Assembly (NCBI GenBank): GCA_004296455.1
Contig: AP018280.1
Span: 4,278,001 to 4,342,000, forward strand
Source of the DNA: Calothrix sp. NIES-4101
GTDB taxonomy: Bacteria > Cyanobacteriota > Cyanobacteriia > Cyanobacteriales > Nostocaceae
Length of the DNA: 64,000 bases
Reading direction: 5' to 3'
The notes beneath the pieces are model-generated. The model saw only the letters and a list, made by a program, of their open reading frames with translations, searched no databases and was not told the DNA's origin. The translations under genes and the position numbers were made by a program. Positions 34,188 to 58,160 of this stretch are shown in pieces (the stretch's first letter is position 1; the number at the start of each line of letters is the position of its first letter).

Positions 34188-34373
34188 TCAATGACAACCA
34201 CGTATATAGGTGACACCGCGATACTTAAGTTCAAATCGAGAGAAAGTTGTCAATAATCTTGGTTTGGAGATACGGTAACTAATTCCTCGATATTTTGCAT
34301 TCTTCTCATACTTTGTGCTTGTTAATTCCGAAATATCCGATTCATAATGGGAACCACGATAAGATAGTTGCAT
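34188..34373 (-). CDS. DUF4278 domain protein
   Basis: 61 residues: MQLSYRGSHYESD at the start, then AKYRGISYRISKP and LKYRGVTYIRG. The repeated Y-R-G-x-x-Y is the mark of DUF4278, a short family found almost only in cyanobacteria and of unknown function. It is 24 bp upstream of the small membrane protein gene on the same strand, so the two may be cotranscribed. Confidence 0.75.
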   Translation of the reverse strand: MQLSYRGSHYESDISELTSTKYEKNAKYRGISYRISKPRLLTTFSRFELKYRGVTYIRGCH

Positions 34374-34577
34374 AATTTTCTCTGGGTATTTGAATGTGAC
34401 AATTTTGAGAATATGACTTATATTTCTTCTCGTCGATGTGTAAAAGTTATGGATTTAGCACTTAACTTTTCATCAACTATATTTTGACTAATCTTAAACT
34501 CGTTCCCTGAAAAAGGGTGTGCTAGACTTTCCTTGCATCTAACACACCTCTACAAAATCAATCTGAAAACTATTGAT

Positions 34578-34748
34578 TTAATTACCACTATACTCAAGCG
34601 AGTGGTTTACAGGAATTTCTCCATGAGATTGCATGGACAATCTCTGAGGAGCGCAAGCTTGTGTAAATAACAAAATACTAATTGATAAACCGAGTGTAAG
34701 CATTCTATTCCAGCGAATATTGTTCGTAGAATTGATGAAAGTCTTCAT
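34578..34748 (-). CDS. Small lipoprotein (56 residues)
   Basis: The ATG at 34746-34748 is supported by AAGGAGTTGAAATC directly before it. The peptide has a positive start, a hydrophobic stretch (MLTLGLSISILLFTQAC) and a lipobox-like LFTQAC, then about 25 mature residues (APQRLSMQSHGEIPVN...). It would be a lipid-anchored short peptide or a released leader. Its promoter (34781-34824) has the same architecture as those of the monooxygenase and exporter, suggesting joint control. A hairpin-free A/T-rich tail follows. Function unknown. Confidence 0.6.
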   Translation of the reverse strand: MKTFINSTNNIRWNRMLTLGLSISILLFTQACAPQRLSMQSHGEIPVNHSLEYSGN

Positions 34749-34780: not shown

Positions 34781-34824
34781 TTATAGAATTGACCAAGAAC
34801 AAAGTCGATACAGAAAAGTTAAGG
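34781..34824 (-). promoter_or_regulatory. Shared-type promoter of the small lipoprotein gene
   Basis: Read on the minus strand: CTTAACTTTTCTGTATCGAC (from 34823 to 34804), then 16 bp, then TCTATAA (34787-34781). The start codon is 33 bp further on. The same layout precedes four other genes in this window. Confidence 0.65.
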
Positions 34825-35054
34825 AATTCAAGATATCAGCTAACTTAACTGGGAACTTAACTGTTATCGCATCATTATTAATCACAGCAGCTTTAATGCA
34901 GGGTTAATATAGGTAGTGGACTGACACAGCTACAATGTTGTATTAAATTTTAGAAATTTTTGAATAATTTAGAGCGCTAAAGCGCAACTATAAACCTTTT
35001 AGATTCTACTATGGTAAGAATATACTAAATAGTTTAATTTTAATTTAATTGAAT
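34825..35054. other. Intergenic region between lipoprotein and monooxygenase genes
   Basis: AT-rich, no gene seen. It continues the promoter side of the lipoprotein gene (GAATTC next to the conserved box, as at the 46.6 kb promoter) and ends with the 3' side of the monooxygenase. ACTTAACTGTTATCGCATC near 34869 is a partial copy of the conserved box on the plus strand but has no gene after it. Confidence 0.35.
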
Positions 35055-36326
35055 TTATATATGCAATTTTTGAGGTGATAAGAATTGTTTATTCTGTAAT
35101 TGTAATGCAATTCTTTTACCTGTACACCAACCGTAATATCCATAGGTTCCGGATGCACCTAATTTTTTTTCAAACCCCACAAAGTAAAGTGTAGGGTCAA
35201 CAACTGATTGACACTTACCATTCGTTTTTGGTAGTAATCTATCGTCGAGATTTAGATATAATTCAGACTGTCTCAATATTTTATTAATACCAGGACGAAA
35301 ACCAGTCCCTAAAATAATTGCATCATAATCCTTTGATTCCCCATTGCTGAAAATCACACCAGTTTTTGTTAATTGCTGAATATGACTATAAATAACTTTA
35401 ATATTTCCTTCTTTAATTTGTTTAACAGTACCTCTATCTACCCACGCTACACGACCATAATTAACCTCCATGTCGATGGCTCCCCTATCTTCTGGGTAAA
35501 TAGAGTAAGCGCTCAAATCTAAAGCAAAACGCCGAACAAATTTATCATACTCATTAATTTCTACTTGTAATTCTTCTGGAGTAAAATCAATAGCTTTCTC
35601 CATTGCTGCGATTTTAGTATCTACTGTATGCTTATGAAACAAACGTTTAAAATATGACCGAATTTGCCATAACCAATATTGTAGCGATCGCAATCTAGGA
35701 TAGAGAGGAAATACCCAGCGTTTACCACGAATTAACATATCAATACTACTAGCACCATGTTCGTATAAATCTAGTGCTATTTCTGCTGATGAATTTCCTG
35801 AACCCAGAACTAATATTTTCTTGTTTTTATAAGGGATACCATTTTTATATATACTACTGTGAATAATCTCACCAGTAAAATCTTCTTGTCCTACAAAGCT
35901 GAGAATGATAGGTTCATTAGTTAACCCAGTACAGATAACCAATACTTTACATTTCAGGATATCTTTATTTGTTTGTATCTGCCAGTCATTATCTATTTGA
36001 TGATTAATTTTGTTAATATTTTGCACCTCTTCATCAAAACGAATATGGTCATAAACTTGAAAATGATGTGCATATTCTGTTAAATAATCCACAATTTCAT
36101 CTTTAGTTTTAAACGTGGAATAGTTTCGCTTACCTGCAAAAAAAGGCAGAGTAAAATAAGGATTTTGAGTAACTAATCTTTCGTAAGCATTTTTCCAAAT
36201 TCTGGCGACAGTTTTACCCTTTTCGATAATTACAAAATTCTCAATTCCGAATTTTTTCAAACTAGCAGCTACGGTAATACCGCAAAAACCAGCCCCAATG
36301 ATAATAACGTCTAGTTCAGCATTCAT
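35055..36326 (-). CDS. Flavin-containing monooxygenase
   Basis: 423 residues. The FAD-binding Rossmann motif is DVIIIGAGFCGITVAASL (about residues 6-23); the FMO fingerprint F-x-G-x-x-x-H-x-x-x-Y is FTGEIIHSSIYK (about 150); the NADPH-binding motif is VLGSGNSSAEIAL (about 170). LGTGFRPG marks the C-terminal FAD contact. These flavoenzymes oxygenate N, S or carbonyl groups (N-hydroxylation or Baeyer-Villiger type). It is divergent from the cyclic-peptide-type ABC exporter with a shared promoter class on each side, which suggests a common role in making and exporting a small product. Confidence 0.87.
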   Translation of the reverse strand: MNAELDVIIIGAGFCGITVAASLKKFGIENFVIIEKGKTVARIWKNAYERLVTQNPYFTLPFFAGKRNYSTFKTKDEIVDYLTEYAHHFQVYDHIRFDEEVQNINKINHQIDNDWQIQTNKDILKCKVLVICTGLTNEPIILSFVGQEDFTGEIIHSSIYKNGIPYKNKKILVLGSGNSSAEIALDLYEHGASSIDMLIRGKRWVFPLYPRLRSLQYWLWQIRSYFKRLFHKHTVDTKIAAMEKAIDFTPEELQVEINEYDKFVRRFALDLSAYSIYPEDRGAIDMEVNYGRVAWVDRGTVKQIKEGNIKVIYSHIQQLTKTGVIFSNGESKDYDAIILGTGFRPGINKILRQSELYLNLDDRLLPKTNGKCQSVVDPTLYFVGFEKKLGASGTYGYYGWCTGKRIALQLQNKQFLSPQKLHI

Positions 36327-36359
36327 AGTATTGACTTGAATTGCAAATATATTTTATCT

Positions 36360-36403
36360 TTATAAAAGCTTAAATTTCAACAGTCAATATAGATTAGTTA
36401 AGG
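36360..36403 (-). promoter_or_regulatory. Shared-type promoter of the monooxygenase gene
   Basis: Minus strand: CTTAACTAATCTATATTGAC (36402 to 36383), then 17 bp, then TTATAA (36365-36360), 34 bp before the start codon. It differs from the other four copies at three positions inside the upstream box. It faces the exporter promoter 88 bp away. Confidence 0.6.
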
Positions 36404-36490
36404 TATTTAAGTTAAACCTCTCTTCCATAAACACTCAAGTTGTAAGCGCAGAGGTTACGCGGTGTTAATCCATCTTCGATCCAGCTAATG

Positions 36491-36533
36491 ACTTAACTTT
36501 TCTGTATTGACCATAAAATCATTAATATCTATA
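36491..36533 (+). promoter_or_regulatory. Shared-type promoter of the ABC exporter gene
   Basis: Plus strand: CTTAACTTTTCTGTATTGAC (36492-36511), then 16 bp, then TCTATA (36528-36533) within CTATATATA. TATTGAC could act as a -35 element and TATA as a -10; the start codon is 35 bp further on. Confidence 0.68.
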
Positions 36534-36568
36534 TATAAAAATATCCATTTGCAATCCAAGAGTTTATT

Positions 36569-38179
36569 ATGAACTTAGTTAACTTATTACTGCGCTATTC
36601 TTGGAAAATTATAGTTATCTCAGCCTTACTTGGTTTATTAAGTGGATTTAGTACAGCCGGATTACTTATTCTTGTAAATGCTCAAATTAACAATTATCGA
36701 TTAATTAATCAACTTGTGTGGAGTTTTATTGGACTTTGTATTCTCCGATTTATTACTAATATAACTTCTAAATATTTATTAATTATTCTCGCAGAAAAAG
36801 CAATTCTCGAATTACGCCTCATATTAAGTGAGAGTATTTTAGCCGCTCCACTATATCAGTTAGAAAAATTAGGTCAACATAGAATTTTAGCCACACTAAC
36901 CGATGATATTTTATCCATCTCTCGTACAGTTTATGTGATTCCCACATTATGTATTGATATTGCTATTGTAGTCAGTTGTCTTAGTTATGCATTTTGGTTA
37001 TCGCCAATCATATTTTTTATAATCATAACAACTTTATTAATAGGAATAATCAGTTATCAAAAAATATCAGAAAAGGCAACATCATTTTTTATATTAGCTC
37101 GTTTGCAAGAAGATAAATTATTTAACCATTTCCGTAGTATTACAGAGGGAACAAAAGAACTTAAGCTTCATTATCAGCGACAACAAACATTTCTCAAACA
37201 AGAATTAAAACAAGCAGCACAATCATATCAACGTCAAAATATAGCGGGTTTGACAATATTTACTGTTGCTGCTGGTTGGGGAAATATCTTATTTTTTGTA
37301 GTGATTGGACTGATAATTTTTGCTGTACCTATTTTTCAAGTGATACCCACACATATTTTATCCGGATACGTGTTAACTATTCTCTATCTACTTTCACCTT
37401 TAGACTATATTATGAGTGCTATTCCTACTTTTAGTAAAGCAACAGTTGCATTAAATAAAATTGATTCCCTCAAACTGTCATTATCCAATCAATATTATCG
37501 GAATAATTTAATATATTCGCTGGCAGTAGAGAATCATTGTCAACATCTAGAACTTATAGGTGTAACTCATACTTATTATCAACAGGATGAAGATACAGCT
37601 TTTACTCTTGGTGCTATCGATTTTACTATTTCGGGTGGTGAAATTGTTTTTATCATCGGTGGAAATGGTAGTGGTAAGTCTACTCTGATTAAACTCATAA
37701 CTGGTTTATATACTCCTGAAATCGGAAAAATATATCTGAATGGGAAATTAGTAAGTCAGGAAAATCAGGAATGGTTTCGTCAACATTTTTCAGTAGTATT
37801 TTACGATTTTTATTTATTTGATAATATTTTAAATCTCGGTAAAAAGATTAATGATAAACAAGTCCATGATTATTTAGTAAAATTGCATCTAGATAAAAAA
37901 GTTACCATCAAAGATGGTATAATTTCCACAACATTATTATCTCAAGGACAGCGAAAACGCCTAGCATTATTAACAGCTTATTTAGAAGATAGACCGATTT
38001 ATGTATTTGATGAATGGGCTTCTGACCAAGACCCAATCTTTAAGAAAATCTTTTATACAGAATTATTACCGGAATTGAAGAGTAAAGGTAAAGCTGTAAT
38101 TGTCGTGACTCATGACGACCAATATTTCCATCTATCAGATAGGATAGTGAAATTAGATTATGGCAAGATAGAAAATTAA
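36569..38179 (+). CDS. Cyclic-peptide-type ABC exporter (SyrD/PvdE-like)
   Basis: 536 residues: an N-terminal membrane domain with about six spans (residues 1-300) fused to a nucleotide-binding domain. Walker A is IIGGNGSGKSTLIKL (about 362-376), the signature is LSQGQRKRLALLTAYL, and Walker B is PIYVFDEWASDQDP, with VVTHDDQY as H-loop. D-E-W-A-x-D-Q-D-P is typical of the SyrD/PvdE family, which exports cyclic peptides, siderophore precursors or microcins. Because the half-transporter is fused and complete it may work as a homodimer. The substrate is unknown; no peptide synthetase is in the window. Confidence 0.9.
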   Translation: MNLVNLLLRYSWKIIVISALLGLLSGFSTAGLLILVNAQINNYRLINQLVWSFIGLCILRFITNITSKYLLIILAEKAILELRLILSESILAAPLYQLEKLGQHRILATLTDDILSISRTVYVIPTLCIDIAIVVSCLSYAFWLSPIIFFIIITTLLIGIISYQKISEKATSFFILARLQEDKLFNHFRSITEGTKELKLHYQRQQTFLKQELKQAAQSYQRQNIAGLTIFTVAAGWGNILFFVVIGLIIFAVPIFQVIPTHILSGYVLTILYLLSPLDYIMSAIPTFSKATVALNKIDSLKLSLSNQYYRNNLIYSLAVENHCQHLELIGVTHTYYQQDEDTAFTLGAIDFTISGGEIVFIIGGNGSGKSTLIKLITGLYTPEIGKIYLNGKLVSQENQEWFRQHFSVVFYDFYLFDNILNLGKKINDKQVHDYLVKLHLDKKVTIKDGIISTTLLSQGQRKRLALLTAYLEDRPIYVFDEWASDQDPIFKKIFYTELLPELKSKGKAVIVVTHDDQYFHLSDRIVKLDYGKIEN

Positions 38180-38277
38180 CTGCAAGTGGTTATCAATAAA
38201 TAGGAGTAAATTATATCGCTCTTGCTTTTCTGTCGATTTTCATATTAATCCCATTGATGTTGAATATATAAGTTATT

Positions 38278-38616
38278 TCAGAAATTTATGAATTTCCTGT
38301 AGATACTGTTTTTTGGTTGTAAACCCCCAATATTTGCTAATATTTCATGACCTTTTAACAATACGACTGTTGGCGCACTTCTGACACCAAAATTCATTGC
38401 TATTTCTGGTTCTTCAGTCATATCAATTTCTACGAGATTTAATTTACCTACACAATCCTGAGCAATTTGATTTAGAACCGGTTTGAGAGTTTTGCAACCA
38501 GGACAATGAGGTGCTACAAACTTGAGAATAATTAATCTATCGGATTCCTGCATCAACCACTTAAAAGCAGTTTTTCCAGTCAAGAAAGTTTGGTCAATAG
38601 AAAAAATCTCTGACAT
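38278..38616 (-). CDS. Thioredoxin-family protein
   Basis: 112 residues, thioredoxin fold with active site APHCPGCKTLKPVL (about residues 35-48; C-P-G-C instead of C-G-P-C), followed by LNLVEIDMTEEPEIAMNFGVRSAPTVVLLKG, including the cis-proline of SAPT. No signal peptide, so cytoplasmic. It is 45 bp downstream of ccdA and likely supplies electrons to it. The start ATG is preceded by GGGAGATAAATC. The unusual CPGC centre suggests a redox potential unlike classical thioredoxin. Confidence 0.85.
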   Translation of the reverse strand: MSEIFSIDQTFLTGKTAFKWLMQESDRLIILKFVAPHCPGCKTLKPVLNQIAQDCVGKLNLVEIDMTEEPEIAMNFGVRSAPTVVLLKGHEILANIGGLQPKNSIYRKFINF

Positions 38617-38661
38617 GATTTATCTCCCAAATGATTATATAATTTTGCAATAAAACAATAA

Positions 38662-39513
38662 CTATGAACCGACAAACCACTGAGTCCCTGTAAACAGGTA
38701 ATACACACCAGTTAAAATCAGTGCGACACTACCAAAGCGGATAATTCCCTCGGAATGATTCAACAAACTACGACTTTGTTTTGCTAATCCTGTAAATAAA
38801 CTTGCGAGAAAAATTAATAGGGTATAACCAAGCGCATAACTTACCATTGTCAACGTACCCAATAACTGGGAACCCGTAGCTGCTGCTGATGCTAACACCG
38901 CAAATAATACTGGACTTGCACAGGGAGAACTCACCAACGCAAAGGTCAAACCGACTCCATATGGTCCAGCTTGGGGAAGATTTACATTCATCTGCGGTAA
39001 GGGTATATTTACCACACCCATCAACCACAGACCCATCACAGCCATGATTAAGCCCACTACTATATTAATATAGCCACGGTACTCCACCATTACGGCTCCC
39101 GCGAAGGAAGAAACTAAACCAAACAAACTTAAAATAGTCACCGCACCCAAAACAAACAAACCTGCTTTACTAAAAGCATCCCAACGGGATTTGATATTGA
39201 GTGTACCGATATAGCTGAGATTGACAGGTAAAAGTGCGAGAATACAAGGAGACACAGATGCGATCGCACCACCTACAAATGCTAATGGTAACAAGACAAA
39301 AGGATTGGCGGTATCCTGTTTATCGAACCATTGTTGGTAGCGGTTTTCGACAATGGAAATTAATCGCTCGATGGGATGACTAATTGCAGGTCCAATGGTG
39401 ATAACTAGAATTAGTGATAGTAATCCCAATCCACCGTAAACTAGCCATTTTTTCGAGATTGGAAAACGTCGGGAAGGGGTTCGCTCTGGGGAAGATTGGG
39501 GTATTGGTTTCAT
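38662..39513 (-). CDS. ccdA: Cytochrome c biogenesis/thiol-disulfide transmembrane protein CcdA
   Basis: 283 residues from the ATG at 39511-39513 (an upstream TTG would add six). After an N-terminal span and a short loop, six membrane spans follow, with the two conserved transmembrane cysteines in SVSPCILALLPVNLSYIG and VSSPCASPVLFAVLASAA. CcdA/DsbD-beta carries reducing equivalents from a cytoplasmic thioredoxin across the membrane to an exported one. Both kinds of thioredoxin are encoded next to it here (38278 and 39714). An extra N-terminal extension of about 80 residues precedes the core. The three genes form a minus-strand set. Confidence 0.87.
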   Translation of the reverse strand: MKPIPQSSPERTPSRRFPISKKWLVYGGLGLLSLILVITIGPAISHPIERLISIVENRYQQWFDKQDTANPFVLLPLAFVGGAIASVSPCILALLPVNLSYIGTLNIKSRWDAFSKAGLFVLGAVTILSLFGLVSSFAGAVMVEYRGYINIVVGLIMAVMGLWLMGVVNIPLPQMNVNLPQAGPYGVGLTFALVSSPCASPVLFAVLASAAATGSQLLGTLTMVSYALGYTLLIFLASLFTGLAKQSRSLLNHSEGIIRFGSVALILTGVYYLFTGTQWFVGS

Positions 39514-39547
39514 GAAATTCTCTGTAAACAATGAAGAGATAGAGATT

Positions 39548-39610
39548 AATTTTTGGCTATTGCAGCATCGATGACTTTGGTGTAGTCAGCTTTGTGTAGA
39601 TCTTGTAGGA
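39548..39610 (-). pseudogene. Remnant of a duplicated thioredoxin gene 3' end
   Basis: The minus strand reads LHKADYTKVIDAAIAKN then a stop, matching the last 17 residues of the exported thioredoxin at 39714 (NKADYTKILNAAVAKK). The rest of the copy is replaced by dispersed-repeat sequence (GTAGGATG ... CATCCTAC, about 39608-39671). It is a trace of a tandem duplication. Confidence 0.6.
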
Positions 39611-39684
39611 TGCGTATATTAGATGAGGATTTTGGTAACTCGCTGGTCGCCTACTCTACAACACATCCTACTGGACTGACACCA

Positions 39685-39701
39685 GGGAGCGAGACGCTCC
39701 C
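39685..39701. repeat. Palindromic repeat GGGAGCGAGACGCTCCC
   Basis: A perfect 7-bp stem with a 3-base loop between the thioredoxin remnant and the exported thioredoxin gene. The same GGGAGCGAGAC core appears in the hairpin at 60212-60231, and a related AGTGGGAGC hairpin at 47104-47127. It may act as a bidirectional terminator for the thioredoxin transcripts. Confidence 0.5.
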
Positions 39702-39713
39702 ACTACTTTTGAC

Positions 39714-40247
39714 CTATTTTTTTGCCACAGCAGCGTTCAGGATTTTGGTATAGTCAGCTTTATTGGCATTATTTTTATACATAGCTAAAATGTTACCCGT
39801 CGCTGGGTCAACAATCGCCACTGTACTTGTTTGACTCTTGTTAGCTTCTAGAAATTTACCTAAGCCCAATCTTTGTGCTGTTGCTTCTGTTTGTTTGAGC
39901 TTACCTTTATCGGTGACATCCAGAACTACAAAATTCACTTTACCTGCATAATCCCGTTTCAACTGCGATAGGGTGGGAGTAATATTTTTACAACCAGCAC
40001 ACCAAGTAGCATATATATCCACCACTACAGGTTTACCCTGAAGTTCTTTTGCTAGAGGTCCTCCGACGGATTTCACTTTACCTGCACAGGGATTTTTCCC
40101 AGCACAGGGATTCCCTTGAGCAATTTTGGTAATTGATGATTGAGCTTCAGTTGCAGAGATACTAGTTGAGGTTGTTGCAACCATAGATGCAGTCAAAACT
40201 AGGCTGCTCAGACAAATTTTGAGCAATAAATTCGCGTGTTTATGCAT
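39714..40247 (-). CDS. Exported thioredoxin-domain protein
   Basis: 177 residues: a signal peptide (ICLSSLVLTASMVATTS), then a short CAGK repeat (NPCAGKNPCAGK), then a thioredoxin domain with active site YATWCAGCKNITP (about residue 90) and VVVDIY/VNFVVLDV strands. It should act in the periplasm or thylakoid lumen and receive electrons through CcdA, encoded 183 bp downstream with a decayed copy of its 3' end between. Relatives help in cytochrome assembly or in keeping exported cysteines reduced. The two extra cysteines ahead of the domain are unusual. Confidence 0.85.
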   Translation of the reverse strand: MHKHANLLLKICLSSLVLTASMVATTSTSISATEAQSSITKIAQGNPCAGKNPCAGKVKSVGGPLAKELQGKPVVVDIYATWCAGCKNITPTLSQLKRDYAGKVNFVVLDVTDKGKLKQTEATAQRLGLGKFLEANKSQTSTVAIVDPATGNILAMYKNNANKADYTKILNAAVAKK

Positions 40248-40853
40248 AAAATTCTTCCTGTCCTCAAGCTGAAAGTGTTTAATGGCGGTATGCTGCCACG
40301 AGAATAGTCAATAGTGGTGCATCTATTTACTAAGACGACTGAGGGTGAGAATTGGATTTAATGAAATTCAATTTTTTTTCTTCGTGTTAAAAATTTACAG
40401 ATTAACAGTAGCGATCGCTGTTCTTGAATTAGCAAAGAAAACCTTGACGCCCACGTCCATCCCAACATCCCAATTAATTATTAAGTTTATTTAAAATCAA
40501 ATATCCCCATCTCACGCTAAATCCGATCGCTACCCCTGTTAAGGTGTACCAATAATGTACTAGCCAGAAGTCCCATTCTTACGTTCTACCTCTAATCGCA
40601 GAACCTAAATTTTTAACGCAAGCATTATTTTTTGCCTTCAATTTTTAATGGATGCGGTGCTGAAACCCCTATAAATCGTCAGTACAAATGTTCACCTTAA
40701 CAGGGGTAATCCGATCGCCTACCCCAGTCGTCATATTATATAGACGGCTTTTTTAAGCAAAAATATCTCTGTGTACGTTGTGGAGCGAGGTGATAATGGA
40801 AAAAATATGCAAAACGGACGACTGTATTAGTTTAGACATGGATTAAAAATTGC
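40248..40853. other. Intergenic region with long-range inverted repeat
   Basis: 606 bp without a gene. CCCCTGTTAAGGTG (40533-40546) is exactly inverted at 40693-40706 (CACCTTAACAGGGG), and each copy is next to a CCGATCGC plus TACCCC motif, so about 175 bp could fold as one unit or represents a small mobile repeat. It ends with the leader of the ECF sigma gene. I see no obvious sigma-autoregulated GGAAC/GTC pair. Confidence 0.4.
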
Positions 40854-41456
40854 ATGGAGCCTAAACAACCCCAGTCAAATTTAACAGGGCTTACCGATGT
40901 GACGGATGAAGCTTTGTTTGTAGCGCTCAAAAATGGCGATGCTTCTGCATTAAGCGTTTTATTTAATCGTCACGGTCGGTTGGTGTATGGATTAGCACTC
41001 AAAATTTTGACGCATCCCCAGGAAGCGGAGGACTTAACCCAGGAAATTTTTCTGACACTGTGGCGAAAAGCATCTACTAATCCCGACTGTCGCTTTTTTG
41101 TCCGCTACTTAATCACGATAACGCGATCGCGTGCCATCGATAAAATTCGCGCTCGTACTAGACAACTCAAACTTGTGGAAAAAGTAGGAACTATGAGCAA
41201 TGATATAACACCCGAACCGACACCCACCGAACAGGTAAGTAATGCAGAGCGATCGCAAAGAGTTAATCATGCTCTTTCTGAACTCCCAGAAAAGCAACGT
41301 CAGGTCATAGAACTAGCTTATAACCAGGGATTGAGTCAATCGGAAATTGCTAAACAACTGGATATTCCCCTAGGTACAGTTAAAACTAATACCCGTCAAG
41401 GATTATTAAAACTCAAACGGATTTTACTTGATGCAGATATCTTAATTTATGAATAA
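40854..41456 (+). CDS. ECF (group 4) RNA polymerase sigma factor
   Basis: 200 residues. Region 2 has LVYGLALKILTHPQEAEDLTQEIFLTLWR (about 45-73) and region 4 has LPEKQRQVIELAYNQGLSQSEIAKQLDIPLGTVKT (about 143-178). The short linker between them is typical of extracytoplasmic-function sigma factors. It overlaps the next gene by 8 bp (ATGAATAA), and that gene encodes its probable anti-sigma factor, so it is likely held inactive until a signal. The target promoters are not known. It is the only sigma factor in the window and lies in the middle of the five shared promoters. Confidence 0.92.
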   Translation: MEPKQPQSNLTGLTDVTDEALFVALKNGDASALSVLFNRHGRLVYGLALKILTHPQEAEDLTQEIFLTLWRKASTNPDCRFFVRYLITITRSRAIDKIRARTRQLKLVEKVGTMSNDITPEPTPTEQVSNAERSQRVNHALSELPEKQRQVIELAYNQGLSQSEIAKQLDIPLGTVKTNTRQGLLKLKRILLDADILIYE

Positions 41457-42294
41457 ATCTTTTGATTCTGAATATATAAAAAATTTAGCTGCGGGATTTG
41501 TGGTAGATGACCTTTCCCCGGAAGAAGCTGAGGAATTTCGGCTATTACTTGATGAGCATCCGGAATTGATTGCTGAAATTGAGGATTTGCAGGAAGTTTT
41601 ACGACAGGTTGTAGATGGTTTTATTGAAGTGGAACCACCTGCTGATTTGTTGGGTAAAATTATCTCCCAAGCCGAAGTAATGACAACTCAAAAATCAAAT
41701 ATAAATGATATTCCAATTCAGCAACAGAATAATTTACTCATACCGAAAAAATCTCAAAGATGGACAAAAATTGCTGGTAGTATCGCCGCATTATTTGTGG
41801 TAATTTTAGGTGTTGATAATTATAGATTGAGGCAAAGTTTGAGTGTTGTCACCGCCGACAACCAAAAATTACGCCAGGATTTTGCTCAAGCTCAAGCTGT
41901 CAAAAATATGCTGCAAAATTCCCAAACGCGATTGTACACTTTTGCAGCATCTAGCTCTACAAATAACTCTACAAATAACATTCCAGATAATGCTTCCGGA
42001 AGTATAGTTATTAATCCTGAAAAACAAAAAGCAGTCATGGTGTTCCAAAATCTACCCGCTCCACCCCCCGGACAGGTTTATCTATTGTGGACAGTTATCG
42101 CGGACAAAAAATTACCCTGTGGTCAAGTAAAACCCTATTCCTGGGGAACTGCTTCCTATGAGTTACCATTTACAGAACAAATGTATAAAGAATTTTCCCA
42201 TCCCCAGTTTTCTGGGTTAGTTGTGACATTAGAAACAGATGCAAAGGTTTCTCGTCCAACAGGAAAAGTAGTGATGCAGAGTTCACATATTTAA
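41449..42294 (+). CDS. Anti-sigma factor, RskA-like
   Basis: 281 residues: an N-terminal cytoplasmic anti-sigma domain (residues 1-85, helical, AAGFVVDDLSPEEAEEFRLL), one membrane span (IAGSIAALFVVILGVDN, about 105-122), a coiled stalk and an exported RskA/anti-sigma-K type domain (MVFQNLPAPPPGQVYLLWTV, then WGTASYELPF). No zinc-binding H-x-x-x-C-x-x-C motif is seen, so this is a non-ZAS class. Translation is coupled to the sigma gene by an 8-bp overlap. Release is presumably by regulated proteolysis or by sensing through the exported domain. Confidence 0.87.
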   Translation: MNKSFDSEYIKNLAAGFVVDDLSPEEAEEFRLLLDEHPELIAEIEDLQEVLRQVVDGFIEVEPPADLLGKIISQAEVMTTQKSNINDIPIQQQNNLLIPKKSQRWTKIAGSIAALFVVILGVDNYRLRQSLSVVTADNQKLRQDFAQAQAVKNMLQNSQTRLYTFAASSSTNNSTNNIPDNASGSIVINPEKQKAVMVFQNLPAPPPGQVYLLWTVIADKKLPCGQVKPYSWGTASYELPFTEQMYKEFSHPQFSGLVVTLETDAKVSRPTGKVVMQSSHI

Positions 42295-42310
42295 ATTTTA
42301 CGGGAAAAGA

Positions 42311-42940
42311 ATGGTGACTTCTACAGATTGTCTGCATTCTCAAAACTGGCTAGTAAATGATAGTGGTGACTATATTGCCTTAAATCTGGAGGAACTTACT
42401 TTACCAGAAAAGCCCTATCGCTTATATCGATTCCTCACGGAATTAGAAGATATCCTGGATCATATTACCGATGATTGTTTTCGCATCCAGGCAATTATGC
42501 CATTAGTACGGAAATTATTAGCTAGTTCCTATTGGTTACAAATGGAGTTTAGCGAACCACCAATTGACCCCGGTTGGTCTGTAAAATTCCTGTATGATGA
42601 GTATGAATTTCCTTCAACTATCCAGATGGTTGCTTGGCTCCCTGGAAATATTTCTCCAATTCACAATCACGCAACTTGGGGAATTGTCGCTGTTGTTGGT
42701 GGACAGGAAAAAAATCAATTTTGGCGAAAAGTTTCTACTTTAGAATATCCAAATCACATTGAATGTGTTGGTGAAAAAATTTTGGTTCCCGGTGATATTA
42801 TTGGTTTCACCGCCGATGCTATCCACTGCGTTGAAGCGTTAGGGAATGAACCAGTGGTAACATTCAATTTGTATGGAGAAACCGCATATCATCAGCGTTT
42901 TGAGTTCGATCGCGTCACCCATGAAGCCAAGAATTTTTGA
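42311..42940 (+). CDS. Cupin / cysteine-dioxygenase-like protein
   Basis: 209 residues of double-stranded beta-helix fold. The metal site region reads SPIHNHATWGIVAVVGGQE (H-x-H then a glycine/glutamate-rich strand, about 117-135) and a later histidine is in FTADAIHCVEALG. This matches predicted metal-dependent cysteine-dioxygenase-type cupins. It lies 16 bp after the anti-sigma gene, so it is probably cotranscribed with the sigma/anti-sigma pair; a thiol-dioxygenase role would fit control by oxidative or sulfur stress. Function beyond the fold is not shown. Confidence 0.75.
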   Translation: MVTSTDCLHSQNWLVNDSGDYIALNLEELTLPEKPYRLYRFLTELEDILDHITDDCFRIQAIMPLVRKLLASSYWLQMEFSEPPIDPGWSVKFLYDEYEFPSTIQMVAWLPGNISPIHNHATWGIVAVVGGQEKNQFWRKVSTLEYPNHIECVGEKILVPGDIIGFTADAIHCVEALGNEPVVTFNLYGETAYHQRFEFDRVTHEAKNF

Positions 42941-42982
42941 GATTGAGTGACATTTTAGTGAATTCCGTAAAAAACCCCTCAC

Positions 42983-45900
42983 TTACCGCTTCGGAGAATT
43001 TACACCAACCCCATCACATAATCCCCTCTCATCTTCTTTGACATTCGCACTATTCCTTAAATAATTCCTCACGCGATCGCAACCCTCCTTCAATAATTTA
43101 TCTGGGTGAGAATTTAAGTCTAAATGCCAGAAAATTACATTTCCCAAGGAGTCGGAGGAGGCTAAAAGCTGATGATTTGGATTAAAGCTGACACTTTTAA
43201 TTCCAGCGTCATGTCCCCCAAAGGTTTGCAGAACATTTCCATCTAACGTCCATAATTTAATGGTTTTATCTTCGCTTGCGGTGACAAAGATTTTACTGTC
43301 TGGATTAAAAATCAGGCTATTGATTGCACCTTGATGACAATATATGGTTTGTAATAATTTACCCTGGAAATTCCATAATTTAATTGTATTATCGTGACTG
43401 ACTGTGGCAATTGTTTGATTATCGGGTGTGATCGCTACAGCTAAAATACCTGCTTGATGTCCCCGTAGAGTGATTAATTCTTTCCCCTGTCGATTCCAAA
43501 TTTTCGCGGTTCCATCTTCGCTACCAGTGACGATAGTTTCACCATCAGGACTAAAATTGACACTTCTTAATCCTGCTTGATGTCCCCGCAATGTCACTAA
43601 TTCCTTACCAGCTAAATTCCATAATTTTGCGGTATTGTCCCAACTTGCACTCGCAATTGTTTGACCGTCAGGACTAAATACAGCACTCCTCACATCTGCA
43701 TTGTGTCCTGGCAATGTCACCAATTCTTTACCATCCAAGTTCCATAGTTTCACAGTTTTATCCCGACTCGCAGTCACAACGGTTTTCCCATCTGGACTAA
43801 ACTGCAAACTTCTTAATGTATCGCTATGACCCTTTAAAGACGTTATATGTCGAACTTCTACACCTTCAAGTTTCCAAAGCGTAGCATGATTTAACCTTCC
43901 CGTCGTACCCAAAATTTGACCTGTAGGGTTGAAACTAATACTAGTAGAAGCAGATTCACCCAGATTTTTACTCCAAGCAGGGGGATTGATGTCTGCACCC
44001 ATATTTGACCCTTGCAGATTCCACAATCTCACAGTTCCATCCTCACCACTGCTAGCTAGGGTTTGATTATCTTTGCTAAAATTTACACCCCAAACAGCAT
44101 CTTGATGTCCCTGTAAAACTTGTAACTGTTCCCCTTGACGGTTCCATATTCTCACGCTTCGATCCCAACCTGCGGTAGCAATTGTTTGACCGTCACGGGT
44201 GAAAACTGCACTCGCAACTGTATCCCAATGTCCCTGGAGAGTAGCGAGTTCCTCTCCGTGTAAATTCCAGAGTTTCGCGGTTTTATCCCGACTAGCTGTA
44301 ATTAAACTCTTACTATCCCGACTGAAATTAACATACATGACCCAATCGTCATGTCCGCGCAATGTTGCTAATACCTGACCATCAAGACTCCAAATTTTTG
44401 CAGTACCGTCCCGACTCGCAGTCGCAATCCTATCACCCTGGGGACTAAAATGGATGGCGACCACAGGTTGATTGTGGGTTTTGAAGAATTTTAATTGTTG
44501 TCCCTGCAAATTCCACAATCGCATTGTCCCATTCCATTCCATAGATGCGATCATCTTACCATCGGGACTAAATCCCACACAGGCAACCCAATCTTGGTTA
44601 GGTAGGGTGACTAACTCTTTACCATCAGCAACACGCCAAATTTTCGCGGTTTTATCCCGACTGGAACTGACTAAGAGTTTACCATCGGGACTGTAATTAA
44701 TACTCCAAACGGCATCCGTATGTCCCCGGAGAGTATGCAATAATTTCCCGTCACGCTGCCAGATTTTAACTGTTTTGTCCCAACTAGCACTAGCTAAGGT
44801 TTTTCCGTCGGGATTAAATTTTACCCGTGTGACAACATCACCATGACCAATGAGACGGTTTTCTTCACGCACCCAATACAGCGATTGACGCAGAGCTTTA
44901 TCTACTTGTACTCTTAACTGTAAATCCCCATTTTGCCAGCCAACTTGTTTGAATTTGATACCAGCTTTTAAACTAGAAAATAAAGCATCAAAGGTTTGTT
45001 GAGAATCAAAAGATGCTTCCGAGGAAATCGTTAAAGCTTTAATTTCACCCAAAGTCACCTGCTTTTTTTGTTGTGCTGTTTGCCACATCAGTAAGCTAGA
45101 TACTCCCAACAATATCAAAGCAACAACAGACACCAGCGATAGTCCCAGTAAACCCCGCCGAATTGTATTTTTCGCTTGTTTTTCAGCATCCAGGAGGATT
45201 TGATTTGCTTGTTCCGATGCAATCAACGCAGTTTGTACTTCTCGTTTCTCTAGTTCCTCACTAGCAGCTAAAAAGCGGTAATCTAAGTTACTTAAACTTT
45301 TTCCCTTTGCCCAAATTTGAGCATCAACAAGCGCTTGTCCCCGTAAAAGATAATTTTCATCTTGATAATTAGATGTTACCCAAGCATTAAGTAAATCTGC
45401 ATAGGGTCGCAATCGCTTTAATTGCTTTTCCACCCATTCTAAATTAAATACTTCTTGATAGATGCGATTATAAACCTGTAAATTGCCTTGTTTCTTAACA
45501 ACCAACCCTGACAACAACAACTCGATTTTTTCCGGGGAATCGTCAGCAGGAACAGCACCATTTTCTAGGATTTGTAGATATAACCCTAGTAATCTGCTTG
45601 CACGTTGTTCGTGAGTCAGTAATCTATCCCGTATTGTTCTTAAATGGGGTGGTTCATCCTGCGCTGTCCAATTTTCGATTATATGCGATCGCGCAATTGC
45701 AGCTACTTGTTGAGCAATTTCCTCTGGTTGCGTCAAAATTTCCCGCATCAACTTTTGCAGATAGGGGGATTCACAGCTAGAAATTATTCCCCCTTCTTCC
45801 CCTGTTCTCTTTTCCCCATACAGTGCAACTAATTGACATAATTTTTGGGTGAGAAACGGTTGTCCTCCTGTCCAAACAAGTATTTCACTCAGTACAGCGT

Positions 45901-46576
45901 GGGGATTATCAAGCTTATCTGTCAAACCTGGTTCTAATGGTTCGACTTCATTTAAAGTAAAACCATTTAAGGCGATCGCGCGTCCAATATTAAAGGGAGT
46001 ACGGGTTTTATCTGTAATTAAATCAGAAGGTGTTGCTACTCCCAACAGCGCAAAAGTCAAACGTTTATGTTCGTGACAGGAACGGATCAGGGCAAAAAAG
46101 TCATCAGTATTAAACGACAAACTCAAGGTACTATCAATTTCATCAAAAAAAATCACTATCGGTTGCTCAATAAACTCTGGTAGAACTGATTGCAGCAATT
46201 CACCCAAACGTCCCACAGGGGAAAAATCTTGTCTTTGAGCTAACCAATTGCGGAGATTAATGTGTCCCGATAATCCCAAACTCCGCACCAATCGCATAAT
46301 TATATCTGCATACCACTGGTCAGCAGTAATATTGCTGTTACCAATTCCCGACAAATCCACCGTCGTGCAAATAATCCCATCTGCTTGCAATCGTTTCGCT
46401 ACCTGTACCCGCAAACTAGATTTTCCCATTTGCCGACAGTTGAGAACATAGCAAAACTCACCCGCCTTGAGAGCATTGTACAGTTCATCGTCAGCATAGC
46501 GAAACACATAACTGGGTGCATCAACAGGTAAACGACCGCCAACATGATATTCATAGGATGAAGTCATTTTTTGCAC
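42983..46576 (-). CDS. AAA-like ATPase / WD40 repeat protein (paralogue of the 7132 gene)
   Basis: 1197 residues. The AAA-like domain covers about 10-400: P-loop [14 protein letters not shown] and Walker [14 protein letters not shown], with [15 protein letters not shown] as in the 7132 protein. A membrane span ([20 protein letters not shown], about 473-492) follows. About 13 WD40 blades fill about 575-1150 ([20 protein letters not shown]). Unlike its paralogue it has almost no coiled coil between span and propeller. Its promoter carries the shared CTTAACTTTTC box. The long array of similar blades suggests recent internal duplication. Confidence 0.9.
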
Positions 46577-46624
46577 AGGTTTACCTGCCTTTCAATTACA
46601 AATTAATTCCTATTCTGTTCTATA

Positions 46625-46667
46625 TATATAGTTTGCTGGTGGTGCTGTCGATGTAGAAAAGTTAAGG
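46625..46667 (-). promoter_or_regulatory. Shared-type promoter of the AAA-like/WD40 gene
   Basis: Minus strand: CTTAACTTTTCTACATCGAC (46666 to 46647), then 16 bp, then TATATA (46630-46625), 48 bp before the start codon. As at 34.8 kb, TGAATTC precedes the box, extending the similarity outward. Confidence 0.65.
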
Positions 46668-46748
46668 AATTCACAACTTTATGGATAAACCACATTGATT
46701 TGAGATGAGATATTTGCAGCAAAGATAAAAAGTAGCGATCGCCTTCCT

Positions 46749-47153
46749 TCAAGTCACCAAGACCTTACGAAACACTATTTTGTCCTCACCCACTTGATAA
46801 AAATCCCGAATTCGCGCTTCCTCTTCAAAACCGCACTTGTGATAAAAATCTCGAACATACTTAAAACTTTCCAAACCGGAGGTTTCCACCAATAGTATTC
46901 GCTCCCCTCGTTCTACTAGCATTTTTTCGATCTGAGCTAAAAGTGCTGTACCTCTTCCCCGTTTCTGATATTTGGGATGGATAGCAATTAGATATAAATT
47001 CCACGTTCCTTCGGTCATTCTTTCCGGTGCAAAGTAGGCAACCCCGACCAAATCACGCTCGTCATCCGTGAGCCAAATGCCAGAACTATAGTATTTATAA
47101 AGTAGTGGGAGCATATTGCTCCCCACTGGTAGTAGCACTACTCCAAGTTTCAA
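46749..47153 (-). pseudogene. GNAT acetyltransferase, N-terminally truncated
   Basis: The frame contains most of a GNAT domain: DDERDLVGVAYFAPERMTEG, the acetyl-CoA loop LIAIHPKYQKRGRGTALLAQIE (Q/R-x-x-G-x-G/A as KRGRGTA) and YHKCGFEEEARIRDFY. The expected first about 50 residues are missing; instead the frame enters a hairpin repeat (47104-47127) near its 5' end, giving an artificial start. It lies between the AAA/WD40 gene and the 856-residue gene, all on the minus strand. Possibly a dead gene; the downstream domain could still fold if expressed. Confidence 0.65.
47104..47127. repeat. Hairpin repeat AGTGGGAGC...GCTCCCCACT
   Basis: Nine- to ten-base inverted arms around ATATT at the truncated 5' end of the GNAT gene. 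It belongs to the same GGGAGC-type palindromes as 39685-39701 and 60212-60231, and probably arrived by insertion or marks a deletion end. Confidence 0.5.
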
Positions 47154-47179
47154 AATGGACGAAGTTTAGAAAGTTCCTA

Positions 47180-49750
47180 TCAACCCCTAGGCAATAGCAA
47201 CTGCGCTAATGCTCTGGCGCTTTCCTGGGGTGCGTTAAAGTTGAATGCCAAATTTAGACGACGCGGTTGGTTCATATATACCATTTCTAATGCGATCGCC
47301 ACTTGACCGCTAGCAGCCACATCTAGGTTGGCGTTGAATTGAGCCGAGCGCACATCCAGTAAACTATTTAAACCTTGTTGGCTGATAAAAGTGTTGATTT
47401 GTGCTATTGCTCCCAGCGATCGCGTTGTGGTTTGTAGTATCTCACGGGCGCGATTCAGTCCAGTGTTAGCGAGGGAGAGGGAAGCATTGAGACTAACAAT
47501 TTCTGGATCTGCATCGATGGGTATCTGACTCACCCCATTACGAGCAGCCTGTAAGCTAGCTTCAAACCGTGATAAGGTTGCTTGAGCGGCTGGTAATCCT
47601 GCTTGTAATCCTGCAAGTTCTGTACCCAACCTTGCGGCTTGAGCAAGTGCCTCTGGATCGGGAATACATTGCCGTCCAATGAGGGGAATATCTGTACACC
47701 GTTGCTGACGCGAAAGGCGATTAATCTCCCGTTGCAGGTTTTGAATCCGACTGTTAAGACTGTTGAGACTATTACGGGCATTTGTCACATCTCGTTCGAG
47801 TTGTTGAATCCGTTGATTTGCAGTCGCTCGTTCCTGTTCTACAGTTTGTCGTCGCCGACGAATGCGATCGCTTAAGCGATTGACTTCCTGTTGGGCGCGA
47901 TCGACTTCTTGTTGAGCCGTATTAATACTATTGCTGGCATTACGAGCAACTTGTTGAATCTCCCGCGAAACATCATCCTTGAGGAACCGCAACAAGTCAT
48001 TTTGCATAGTTGCAGCAACCTGGAAATTACGGCGATCGCCAATACCAGGAGTTGTAACAACCAAAGCAGCCTCAAATCTATTGAACAGTCTTCCCGCTAT
48101 ATTGAAGCGTAATCCGGCTGTAGTTGCCTCGATACGCAATTCCTGGGTAATTCCCAATACAGAAACCAGTCCTGAAATGAATAGCTCAGAATTAACAGAG
48201 GGACCCAACCGTAAGCGGAGTTGAGGGTTTATTTCACCCTGAGTACCCCGAATTTGCAAAATCCCCGCTCCCAAATCGATCGCATCCATCACAGCTCGCA
48301 CTGTCAGCCCATCAAAGTAATCCACATTCACAAACGCATCTGCACCCCAACCCCAAACAGTCATCCGTCCTTGTAGAGTTACACCTGGTTCGCGGAACAA
48401 CACCTGACCAATTTGGGTGGGCACTGGCACAATATTAACTTTAACGTCTTCCATCTGGGCATTAACAACCGTTTCCAAAGGTTGCCGCACCTCTGCTGGT
48501 AGGGCATTATAGGCGACAAAGGTGGGTGCAGTCATGGCACTCATCAATTGTAGGAAAGTTAAGCGATCGGTTGACCCTGCCAAAACAAACTCATCGGGGT
48601 CATTACTATCTACCAAAATCGATATACTGCCATCAATATCTCCCAGACGCAAGTTACCATGCAAACCAATGTTGTCAATCCAGGGTGAGGAATAGGTAAG
48701 CCCCAGTTGCAGGGAGAGTTGACGTATGATGATGCCAGGAATACCAAAGGGATTAACCCATTCATCGGTATTTTGAATTTCCCCAGTGAGTTCACCTTCC
48801 GGGCTACGTCCGGTACCATTGAGAGTAAAGAAACTGGTGAGGGATTCAGCTTCAGTCCGCACACCACCAGTGAAAACTAGGCGAGTCAGTTGCCCTTTTT
48901 CCCGTAGTGTCACAACAATATCTTGGGCAATACCTAACTGCGCTTCTGGGGGCGCTCCGGAAATTTCTAACCCCACATCCGAACGTGAAAAACTAATCTG
49001 GAAATTCTCACCCTGAATCAAATCAGTATTGGTTCGCACCGACCCTTCCAGTACATACTTAGGTAATGACTCATCTACCGTTAGGGCTGCGTGAACTGCC
49101 AACTGTCTGACATGGAGCAGTCCCCCCACCAATTCCCAAGTGCGATCGCCTGAATTCTCTACCTCCACATTGCCGTAGAAGTTAAATCCCCGATTGATAG
49201 CCGCATCTAAGCGTGGATCGTAGGCTTGGTCACTGGAAGATAAAATGATTGCAGGAGCAGTAAACCGCATTGCTCGAACAATCGGAATATCAGGAAAGAC
49301 ATTGCCAATTCCCCAGGAAGGTACTTGATTCGCCAGTTCTGGTAAGGGTTCAAATTTGAGAATGGCATGAGGAACACCCTTGAATAGGAAAAATTCGGCT
49401 GTGAGCAACACTCGATCCAAACCCAGGTAAGTTACTTCACCAGTGATTCTCGTCTTCGTATTTTCAGGAGTCGCTACGCGAACGCCACTTTCAATTTCCC
49501 GTCCAGGATCACCTACTAATCCCGGTTGTCCTTCGATAAACTCAATCGTGGGATTCTCAATTTCCACGAATACATTGACCACACCACCAACAATCTCGCC
49601 TAAAACATTAAACGCACCCAGAAGGTCACCACTTAATTGCAGTCGATTACCTTCTACACTTTCCCGTAATCTTTGCATCAAAGCATAATGAGGTAATGAT
49701 ATCCCCATTGCTGTTTCCATTGCCATCAATGCACGCTCTATCGATTGCAT
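47180..49750 (-). CDS. Large beta-rich/coiled-coil protein, unknown function
   Basis: 856 residues from the ATG at 49748-49750, chosen because GGAGTTGATT precedes it. There is no signal peptide. About 600 residues are beta-rich with repeating blocks such as GEVTYLGLDRVLLTAEFF and GRMTVWGWGADAFVNVDY, suggesting a repeated elongated domain. Residues about 600-740 form a coiled coil (QQEVDRAQQEVNRLSDRIRR) interrupted by a cysteine pair region (RCTDIPLIGRQCIPD), and a short beta tail ends the protein. I do not recognise the family. It has its own copy of the shared promoter and probably a structural or lipid-binding role, which is a guess. Confidence 0.72.
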   Translation of the reverse strand: MQSIERALMAMETAMGISLPHYALMQRLRESVEGNRLQLSGDLLGAFNVLGEIVGGVVNVFVEIENPTIEFIEGQPGLVGDPGREIESGVRVATPENTKTRITGEVTYLGLDRVLLTAEFFLFKGVPHAILKFEPLPELANQVPSWGIGNVFPDIPIVRAMRFTAPAIILSSSDQAYDPRLDAAINRGFNFYGNVEVENSGDRTWELVGGLLHVRQLAVHAALTVDESLPKYVLEGSVRTNTDLIQGENFQISFSRSDVGLEISGAPPEAQLGIAQDIVVTLREKGQLTRLVFTGGVRTEAESLTSFFTLNGTGRSPEGELTGEIQNTDEWVNPFGIPGIIIRQLSLQLGLTYSSPWIDNIGLHGNLRLGDIDGSISILVDSNDPDEFVLAGSTDRLTFLQLMSAMTAPTFVAYNALPAEVRQPLETVVNAQMEDVKVNIVPVPTQIGQVLFREPGVTLQGRMTVWGWGADAFVNVDYFDGLTVRAVMDAIDLGAGILQIRGTQGEINPQLRLRLGPSVNSELFISGLVSVLGITQELRIEATTAGLRFNIAGRLFNRFEAALVVTTPGIGDRRNFQVAATMQNDLLRFLKDDVSREIQQVARNASNSINTAQQEVDRAQQEVNRLSDRIRRRRQTVEQERATANQRIQQLERDVTNARNSLNSLNSRIQNLQREINRLSRQQRCTDIPLIGRQCIPDPEALAQAARLGTELAGLQAGLPAAQATLSRFEASLQAARNGVSQIPIDADPEIVSLNASLSLANTGLNRAREILQTTTRSLGAIAQINTFISQQGLNSLLDVRSAQFNANLDVAASGQVAIALEMVYMNQPRRLNLAFNFNAPQESARALAQLLLPRG

Positions 49751-49784
49751 AATCAACTCCGTAAAATTAACTGAATGATTCAGT

Positions 49785-49827
49785 TTTACAAGGATTCATT
49801 GATAGGGTCGATACAGAAAAATTAGGG
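49785..49827 (-). promoter_or_regulatory. Shared-type promoter of the 856-residue protein gene
   Basis: Minus strand: CCTAATTTTTCTGTATCGAC (49826 to 49807), then 16 bp, then TGTAAA (49790-49785), 34 bp before the start codon. The upstream box differs at a few bases (AATTTTTC for AACTTTTC) and the -10 is the weakest of the five. Confidence 0.5.
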
Positions 49828-49957
49828 ACTTGAGCGTGAATAGCTTTCTTAACTTTTATGGGCGATCGCTCAAATCAGACACCACTTATTCCATAGATTT
49901 AAGAACAAAGCATATACTTTTTGCTTCACTTTTCTTCTCCTCCTCAACAGGGTTTGA

Positions 49958-57893: not shown

Positions 57894-58160
57894 ATCCATC
57901 AACAATGTGCGAGGCAAAGCTGCTACCCTCCACAATATGGCAGATTTAAAAGCACAACAGGGAGAAATAGAAGATGCGATCGCACTTTACAACCAATCCT
58001 TACAAATATATGAATCCATCAACGATGTGCGAGGCAAAGCTGCTACCCTCCACAATATGGCAGATTTAAAAGCACAACAGGGAGAAATAGAAGATGCGAT
58101 CGCACTTTACAACCAATCCTTACAAATATATGAATCCATCAACGATGTACGAGGGAAAGC
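57861..58160 (+). repeat. Near-identical 120-nt TPR-coding tandem repeat
   Basis: Two complete units (57861-57980, 57981-58100) differ at a single base (CAACAATGTG against CAACGATGTG), and a third partial unit starts at 58101 and diverges from about 58150. Each unit encodes 40 residues, one TPR plus linker. Such identity indicates very recent duplication or gene conversion. A unit-length change leaves the frame intact, but the 5' edge has lost 44 nt. Confidence 0.85.

Follow-up and report, generated by a model that had tools for sequence, protein, structure and literature searches.

A 25-bp promoter element marks a local regulon in Calothrix and co-occurs with an HTH-AAA_35 ATPase, its candidate activator

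Introduction

MalT, a transcription activator of the STAND class, exerts positive control over several promoters. The locus described here lies in a stretch of 64,000 nucleotides from Calothrix sp. NIES-4101 (hereafter the window, in whose coordinates positions are given), in which five genes share a conserved promoter box and which also encodes, about 10 kb from the box cluster, an ATPase with a putative helix-turn-helix (HTH) that we call F7. Like MalT (PMC4381067), F7 would join a DNA-binding domain, putative in its case, to a STAND-like ATPase. The two differ in that the HTH of F7 is N-terminal, its ATPase is of the AAA_35 type, it has no sensor repeats and its gene neighbours a ParA-like gene. 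Unlike the site of MalT, the putative F7 site is one 25-bp element without significant repeat.

Three further systems invite comparison, each through parts of one published account. A survey of cyanobacterial sigma-70 homologues counts AAA_35, WD40 and NB-ARC among their accessory domains (PMC11119718); the build of F7 is therefore not new, and a target would be, the portion of the survey used here giving neither target nor function for these domains. F7 itself has a weak match to Sigma70_r4_2 (2/20 orthologues, best E 0.084). The J-Box promoters of SigJ in Nostoc punctiforme (PMC6495340) are likewise a promoter element conserved in cyanobacteria and tied to one regulator. In the sections consulted, however, the J-Box is described as an extended -10 element, GGGaAtacT, with a weak -35, whereas the box here has an ordinary -10 and is conserved upstream of and over the -35; a J-Box/SigJ promoter was ruled out on this difference in consensus. 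The STAND/ParA conflict systems of multicellular bacteria (PMC7159879, in part) also bring AP-ATPases and MinD/ParA-like proteins together in one neighbourhood. In contrast to what that part describes, no vWA or MoxR match was found among the window proteins scanned against Pfam (part of the window genes), F7 has no PADLOC match, and the hallmark here is a shared promoter. We found no description of this regulon in the literature searched.

Results

The promoter element is confined to one cluster

The five boxes reported by an initial annotation of this DNA stand at the positions it gave, matching the 19-mer TTAACTTTTCTGTATYGAC with 0, 3, 0, 2 and 2 mismatches (Table 1). At up to three mismatches the window holds six matches, whereas 100 shuffles average 0.07. 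The one match that is not among the five boxes, at 37373, is inside the exporter gene. The spacing had to be revised. Rather than the 16-17 bp first described between box and TATA, 18 bp separate the final C from the -10 in 5/5 boxes, and the 33-48 bp said to precede the start codons holds roughly for the distance from TATA to start but not for that from the box end, which is 55, 56, 57, 70 and 56 bp. The conserved element also extends 6 bp further upstream than first described (AANTCC, from a matrix of 105 sites). A degenerate sixth box that the initial annotation had missed, ATAACTTTTACACATCGAC-N18-TATTCT (34450-34408, minus strand), lies 58 bp ahead of the DUF4278 gene at 34188-34373. It is credible by position rather than by score (E 0.024), because DUF4278 genes regularly own a box elsewhere.

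Across the genome (7,586,835 bases, six contigs), TTAACTTTTCTGTATYGAC has 18 matches at up to three mismatches, compared with six for a reversed control. Four to six of the six TATAAA letters are present at offset 18 in the five boxes, and zero to three in the other 13 matches. We then scored 150 of 4479 first-look candidates with a sequence-only promoter model built on 38 diverse promoters, the five window ones among them. The five boxes had E values from 1.1e-12 to 4.9e-8, followed by 0.018 for a site outside the cluster and 0.024 for the DUF4278 site, and no further strong site was found in the 7.6-Mb genome among these 150 of 4479 candidates. Since all five boxes were training rows, their own scores are partly by construction; the lack of other strong sites is not. 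The strong sites of this genome are thus all within one 15-kb stretch.

The element is conserved across cyanobacteria

A search for the exact 19-mer in a collection of genomes from 84,980 species found 53 stretches that carry it, and the titles of 51 are cyanobacterial. Its cyanobacterial carriers include many Nostocales, Microseira, an Oscillatoriaceae metagenome-assembled genome (MAG), a Leptolyngbyaceae MAG and Hydrococcus. In a Gracilibacteria MAG the promoter recurs ahead of a frame with 76% identity (262 residues) to an AAA_35-WD40 protein of the set, and for that reason the sequence is probably mis-binned. The match in Lokiarchaeia has no -10 at 18 bp and no downstream open frame of 40 residues.

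The consensus of 105 distinct sites is AANTCCTTAACTTTTCTGTATCGAC-N18-TATAAA, in which the -10 is there by construction, the sites having been chosen for a -10 at offset 18, but the upstream AANTCC is not. In the matrix of these sites the conserved element spans positions -6 to 19, the spacer is low in information, and position 16 is C in 83% of sites, giving TCGAC and not TTGAC. A second set, of 61 distinct exact boxes, was gathered from the loci found with the exact 19-mer, without any -10 criterion. At an offset of exactly 18, TATAAA is matched in at least five of six letters in 42/61, and in at least four of six with a TA start in 53/61; CC directly precedes 54/61. Three exact boxes (L063:8818, L066:9242 and L074:10036) have no -10 at 18 bp, share a similar downstream stretch and lie near DUF4278 or NB-ARC-WD40 genes; they are perhaps relics. 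An 11-bp direct repeat drawn by eye within the box was dropped (permutation p 0.11 at 11 bp and 0.49 over offsets 8-15), and an inverted repeat was equally unsupported (permutation p 0.72 or more).

The local regulon with an activator-type box over the -35 that the initial annotation suggested is supported by the confinement to one cluster and by the conserved box, its 18-bp spacing and the genes downstream of it in other cyanobacteria. It is a real regulon, scattered through cyanobacterial lineages.

Target genes suggest peptide export and surface proteins

The same gene families recur behind the box. Of the 61 distinct exact boxes, 38 precede the lipoprotein (15), the exporter (10), the AAA_35-WD40 protein (7) or a DUF4278 protein (6); of the remainder, seven stand before a family that was first encountered behind a box, and 16 have nothing recognisable after them. 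A broader survey took up to two open frames behind each of 137 distinct sites above the matrix threshold, in loci L048 and up and the window; its counts treat close relatives separately, and the matrix was trained partly on the same loci. On this basis the frames comprise AAA_35-WD40 (24), small lipoprotein (19), cyclic-peptide exporter (18), DUF4278 (18, three of them assigned by within-group similarity only) and monooxygenase (15). Smaller groups are LamG/856-aa (7), family F233 (4), VanY/peptidoglycan-binding (3) and nonribosomal peptide synthetase (NRPS) type (3). Three unnamed groups have 13, 3 and 3 frames, and most of the 13, all second-choice frames, come from AAA_35-WD40 sites. Of the 137 sites, 20 stand alone, ungrouped. 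The variant ACATCGAC is frequent ahead of AAA_35-WD40 orthologues, some of which carry GTATCGAC.

Individual loci fill in this picture. The box found at 49807 stands in the same form before a 95% identical orthologue of the 856/858-aa protein in relative L067. Four LamG giants were compared with the 856-aa protein, and in two of them the C-terminal part matches its last 400 residues (38 and 35% identity). In L067, NRPS and major facilitator superfamily (MFS) genes fill the slot between the exporter and the AAA_35-WD40 gene. The corresponding slot of the window (38278-42940) holds thioredoxin-DsbD-thioredoxin genes and a block of ECF, RskA and 209-aa genes. An annotated NRPS gene on a plasmid of Nostoc sp. 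UHCC 0870 (247 kb) has a box ending 172 bp upstream of it, and in L072 a phage-tail-sheath gene is preceded by a box. Ahead of some LamG giants the box lies ~270-330 bp from the start (L071:9427, L062:16499), implying long leaders. DUF4278 is placed in the N-terminal part of glutamine synthetase inactivating factor in the portion of PMC6316151 used here, which is of no help in this setting. The cluster probably consists of genes that export a small peptide and, in relatives, also make one; taken together, the targets point to peptide export and surface or secreted proteins.

F7 and the box are co-distributed

Three candidates from the island were compared with the box, here scored as a composite promoter (box, N18, TAWA) at up to one mismatch: F7, an NB-ARC-WD40 protein and an extracytoplasmic function (ECF) sigma factor. 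The family sample comprises 145 genomes, 27 with the composite box. With F7 orthologues defined at 66% identity or more over a 110-residue query, the box is present in 21/21 F7-positive and 6/124 F7-negative genomes (phi 0.86, p 2.8e-20). In 12 genera F7 is present in some members and absent from others; in 11 of these the presence of the box follows that of F7 throughout, and genus 5 is the one that departs from this. A class sample of 388 genomes, which partly overlaps the family sample, has the composite box in 12 (one match for the reversed control). At an F7 cut-off of at least 63%, the box is present in 8/10 F7-positive genomes and 4/378 others (p 1.8e-12), and a ninth F7-positive genome, G316, has a variant box near its F7 in a matrix search. 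Single one-mismatch boxes without F7 (G049, G004 and G105 in the family; G049, G501, G442 and G326 in the class) may be chance.

Box and F7 also co-occur at unlinked places, so that their association goes beyond co-inheritance of one island and would fit action in trans. G060, a single 7.0-Mb contig, has F7 at 5.05 Mb and its boxes at 0.70, 3.86 and 5.04 Mb; in G168 the two are 1.5 Mb apart on one contig; and G432 has four boxes on two contigs, the nearest ~109 kb from F7. In Microseira (L122) and the MAG UBA11371 (L137), F7 ends ~70-290 bp ahead of a box. In a search of plasmids, the F7 match in Nostoc sp. UHCC 0870 reaches 78%, and the other 33 records are below 60%. In an Oscillatoriaceae MAG (L128:7416-7874), only the last third of an F7-like protein is matched (61%, 156 residues), just after a box-bearing lipoprotein gene.

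F7 combines a putative HTH with an AAA_35 ATPase

AAA_35, the sole Pfam match in F7, begins at residue 126 and reaches nearly to the C-terminal end. The first 100 residues are modelled as HTH-like helices (33-43, 48-55 and 59-78), with block pLDDT of 73-86 over residues 31-90, a whole-model mean of 66 and five sequences in the alignment. The core of the putative HTH, YDxIA....YxPEYIKHDVGPxLWxxLSxSxGE, is invariant in 20/20 aligned orthologues, in all of which PEYIKHDVGP.LW, around the putative recognition helix, is identical. Mean pairwise identity among 16 orthologues is 84% for residues 48-80, 79% for 28-90, 75% for the whole ATPase and 81% for its core (150-320), but 30% for the linker. QMGKTS and GHPYL are invariant in these 16, and GHP may correspond to the GxP motif of STAND proteins.

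Homology of the F7 HTH to ECF region 4 found no support in a profile comparison (hhalign probability 0.9%). Searched against solved structures, the F7 sequence gave one chance-level match (RecA, E 2.3) and the HTH profile none. Pfam detects no ligand-sensing repeat domain in F7, WD40 sitting on a separate target protein. A defence system was also discarded: in a PADLOC scan of eight window proteins F7 and the monooxygenase had no family, and the others matched on ATPase, TPR, WD40 and ParA-like stretches. Proteins with an F7-type N-terminal domain occur in 91/388 class genomes at E <= 1e-15. We know of none with an assigned DNA target, nor was one found in the literature searched.

Elsewhere in the window, a 120-bp unit repeated 2.5 times with 98% matches (57861-58163) overlaps the TPR gene at 57907-58692, a recent repeat expansion, and 51148-52198 carries transposase parts on two separate frames (DDE_Tnp_4, HTH_Tnp_4). 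No Rfam family reaches gathering scores in the window.

Table 1. Promoter boxes, their genes and regulator candidates in the window
Feature	Position	Strand	Details
Box, small lipoprotein gene	34804..34828	-	AATTCCTTAACTTTTCTGTATCGAC; -10 TATAAA 34780-34785; 19-mer 34804-34822, 0 mismatches
Box, flavin monooxygenase	36383..36407	-	AATACCTTAACTAATCTATATTGAC; -10 TATAAA 36359-36364; 19-mer 36383-36401, 3 mismatches
Box, cyclic-peptide exporter	36487..36511	+	AATGACTTAACTTTTCTGTATTGAC; -10 TATATA 36530-36535; 19-mer 36493-36511, 0 mismatches
Box, AAA_35-WD40 gene	46647..46671	-	AATTCCTTAACTTTTCTACATCGAC; -10 TATATA 46623-46628; 19-mer 46647-46665, 2 mismatches
Box, 856/858-aa protein	49807..49831	-	AAGTCCCTAATTTTTCTGTATCGAC; -10 TAAAAC 49783-49788; 19-mer 49807-49825, 2 mismatches
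Sixth, degenerate box, DUF4278 gene	34432..34456	-	core ATAACTTTTACACATCGAC 34432-34450; N18; TATTCT 34408-34413
DUF4278 protein, 61 aa	34188..34373	-	probable regulon member
Small protein, 56 aa, lipoprotein-like by eye	34578..34748	-	regulon member; no Pfam or NCBIfam match
FAD/NAD(P) monooxygenase-like protein, 423 aa	35055..36326	-	regulon member
Cyclic peptide export ABC transporter	36569..38179	+	regulon member; TIGR01194, 474.7 bits, cut-off 286.2
AAA_35-WD40 protein, 1197 aa	42983..46576	-	regulon member
856-aa protein	47180..49750	-	regulon member; C-terminal LamG-giant match
HTH-AAA_35 ATPase F7	22755..24143	-	candidate activator; AAA_35 E 1.6e-144; co-distribution with box; helix pattern in model
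ParA/MinD-like ATPase	24192..24971	-	F7 neighbour; below KGGVGR model cut-off (77.8, cut-off 90); adjoins F7 in relatives
NB-ARC-WD40 protein	30387..33944	+	XRE-like N-terminus by eye; second-best regulator candidate
ECF sigma factor (40854-41456) and RskA-like anti-sigma factor (41449-42294)	40854..42294	+	inside cluster; weakly associated with box

Discussion

The -10 hexamer stands at a fixed distance from a -35-like element in 5/5 window sites and 53/61 exact boxes, a feature of class II promoters. With TATAAA at about -12 to -7, TYGAC would fall at -35 to -31 relative to the predicted start, and the conserved AANTCCTTAACTTTTCTGTA lies directly upstream of TYGAC, where an activator could touch RNA polymerase. 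The conserved element thus overlaps or abuts the weak -35, and we propose that a dedicated activator binds it, the promoter being of class II and sigma-70 type; this reading, with F7 as the most likely activator, is one that we consider probable. In such a mechanism F7 would recognise the box through its N-terminal HTH, and a signal would control its activity by way of the STAND-like ATPase, possibly together with the ParA-like neighbour (24192-24971). F7 would then switch on a small, secretion-related regulon, here comprising the lipoprotein, the FAD monooxygenase, the cyclic-peptide exporter and the AAA_35-WD40, 856-aa and DUF4278 proteins, and elsewhere NRPS genes, LamG giants and peptidoglycan-binding proteins. 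The AAA_35-WD40 target may in turn feed back on its regulator.

Several observations weigh against assigning the box to F7. In G272 F7 is on a 6.7-kb contig without a site by matrix search, and that genome has no box at up to one mismatch. Conversely, G007, G057 and G122 have zero-mismatch promoters but F7 paralogues of at most 56% identity. In G432 and G446 the match to F7 is split into two parts that lie in different frames, yet both genomes keep several boxes. The identity cut-offs (63% for the class, 66% for the family) were set after the fact at gaps in the data, and some genomes are in both samples. Linkage alone does not establish regulation, because genes that share an island co-occur, and the ParA-like gene would presumably track the box as well. 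Both domains of F7 are conserved (79% for the HTH, 81% for the ATPase core), which by itself does not single out the HTH. Pfam HTH matches are weak, GerE appearing in 5/20 orthologues (best E 0.03) beside the Sigma70_r4_2 match given above, and the unrelated Cupin_7 scores alike (3/20, E 0.04). Finally, the box has no significant repeat by permutation test. The split frames of G432 and G446 (L147 ~10577-10623 and L144 ~9928) reflect either an assembly error or a decayed gene.

The initial annotation had raised the ECF sigma factor as the driver, an idea that our data leave highly improbable. It does sit in the cluster beside an RskA-like anti-sigma factor, and it has a weak association with the box, which is found in 12/24 family genomes with an ECF orthologue (at least 79% identity; 24/145 genomes) and 15/121 without (p 1e-4). 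However, the other 12/24 lack the box, including the same-genus G019 with an orthologue at 92% identity, and 10/21 genomes holding both box and F7 have no ECF orthologue, with up to 22 candidates scored per genome. The promoter itself also argues against an ECF factor: its -10 resembles TATAAA and has the spacing of a sigma-70-type promoter, the 9 bp from TTAACT to CGAC are too short for an ECF -35/-10 pair, and none of 15 model hits lies before the ECF gene at 40854. F7, with the box in 21/21 genomes that have it, is a much better candidate. The NB-ARC-WD40 protein comes closer, being a full STAND protein with a WD40 sensor and an N-terminus that is conserved in relatives and XRE-like by eye, with no Pfam HTH match. 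Nineteen of the 24 family genomes with its orthologue (at least 62%) have the box (phi 0.69, p 2.5e-13). We nevertheless think it improbable as the regulator. The five family genomes that have it without F7 (G021, G032, G053, G091 and G111) lack the composite box, G053 having the exact 19-mer but no -10, whereas G109 and G137, which have F7 without it, carry the box. In the class sample the box is found in 6/13 genomes with this protein (at least 60%; G146 at 58% and G427 with a partial match left out) compared with 8/10 with F7, and in G181 and G326 no site occurs within the 20 kb read around its gene. It is possibly a second HTH-STAND regulator with a site of its own.

The box could instead belong to a widespread regulator encoded elsewhere, such as a response regulator, with F7 merely riding the same island. 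An asymmetric site beside the -35 would suit an OmpR-type protein, and three genomes have perfect promoters without F7. Such a regulator should have sites in island-free genomes, but 118/124 F7-negative family genomes have none at up to one mismatch and the strong sites of this genome are confined to one 15-kb stretch, making this about as improbable as the NB-ARC-WD40 protein. Four AraC-type activators (HTH_18) are encoded in the genome, none of them in the window. A repressor overlapping the -35 is slightly easier to envisage but still unlikely. Repressors, too, can occupy the region of about -55 to -31 that the element spans. An indirect point against one is the retention of TCGAC in place of TTGAC at the -35, which would suit a promoter dependent on an activator. 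We favour activation, with F7 as the candidate activator.

A bolder and rather doubtful extension is that F7, its ParA-like partner and the AAA_35-WD40 target might form a STAND-like assembly, acting as a mobile, self-reinforcing switch for secreted weapons or signals. The WD40 part would sense an external cue and ATP-bound assemblies would sit on the 25-bp box. Targets would comprise NRPS, the cyclic-peptide exporter, LamG/RTX-like surface giants, peptidoglycan-binding proteins and, in one genome, the phage-tail-sheath-like gene.

With one F7-type protein now paired with named genes and an extended site that hardly varies, its biochemistry can be tested with one protein and one short DNA. Peptide export is among the target functions, as are NRPS genes in relatives, so F7 may also provide a handle on silent natural-product clusters.

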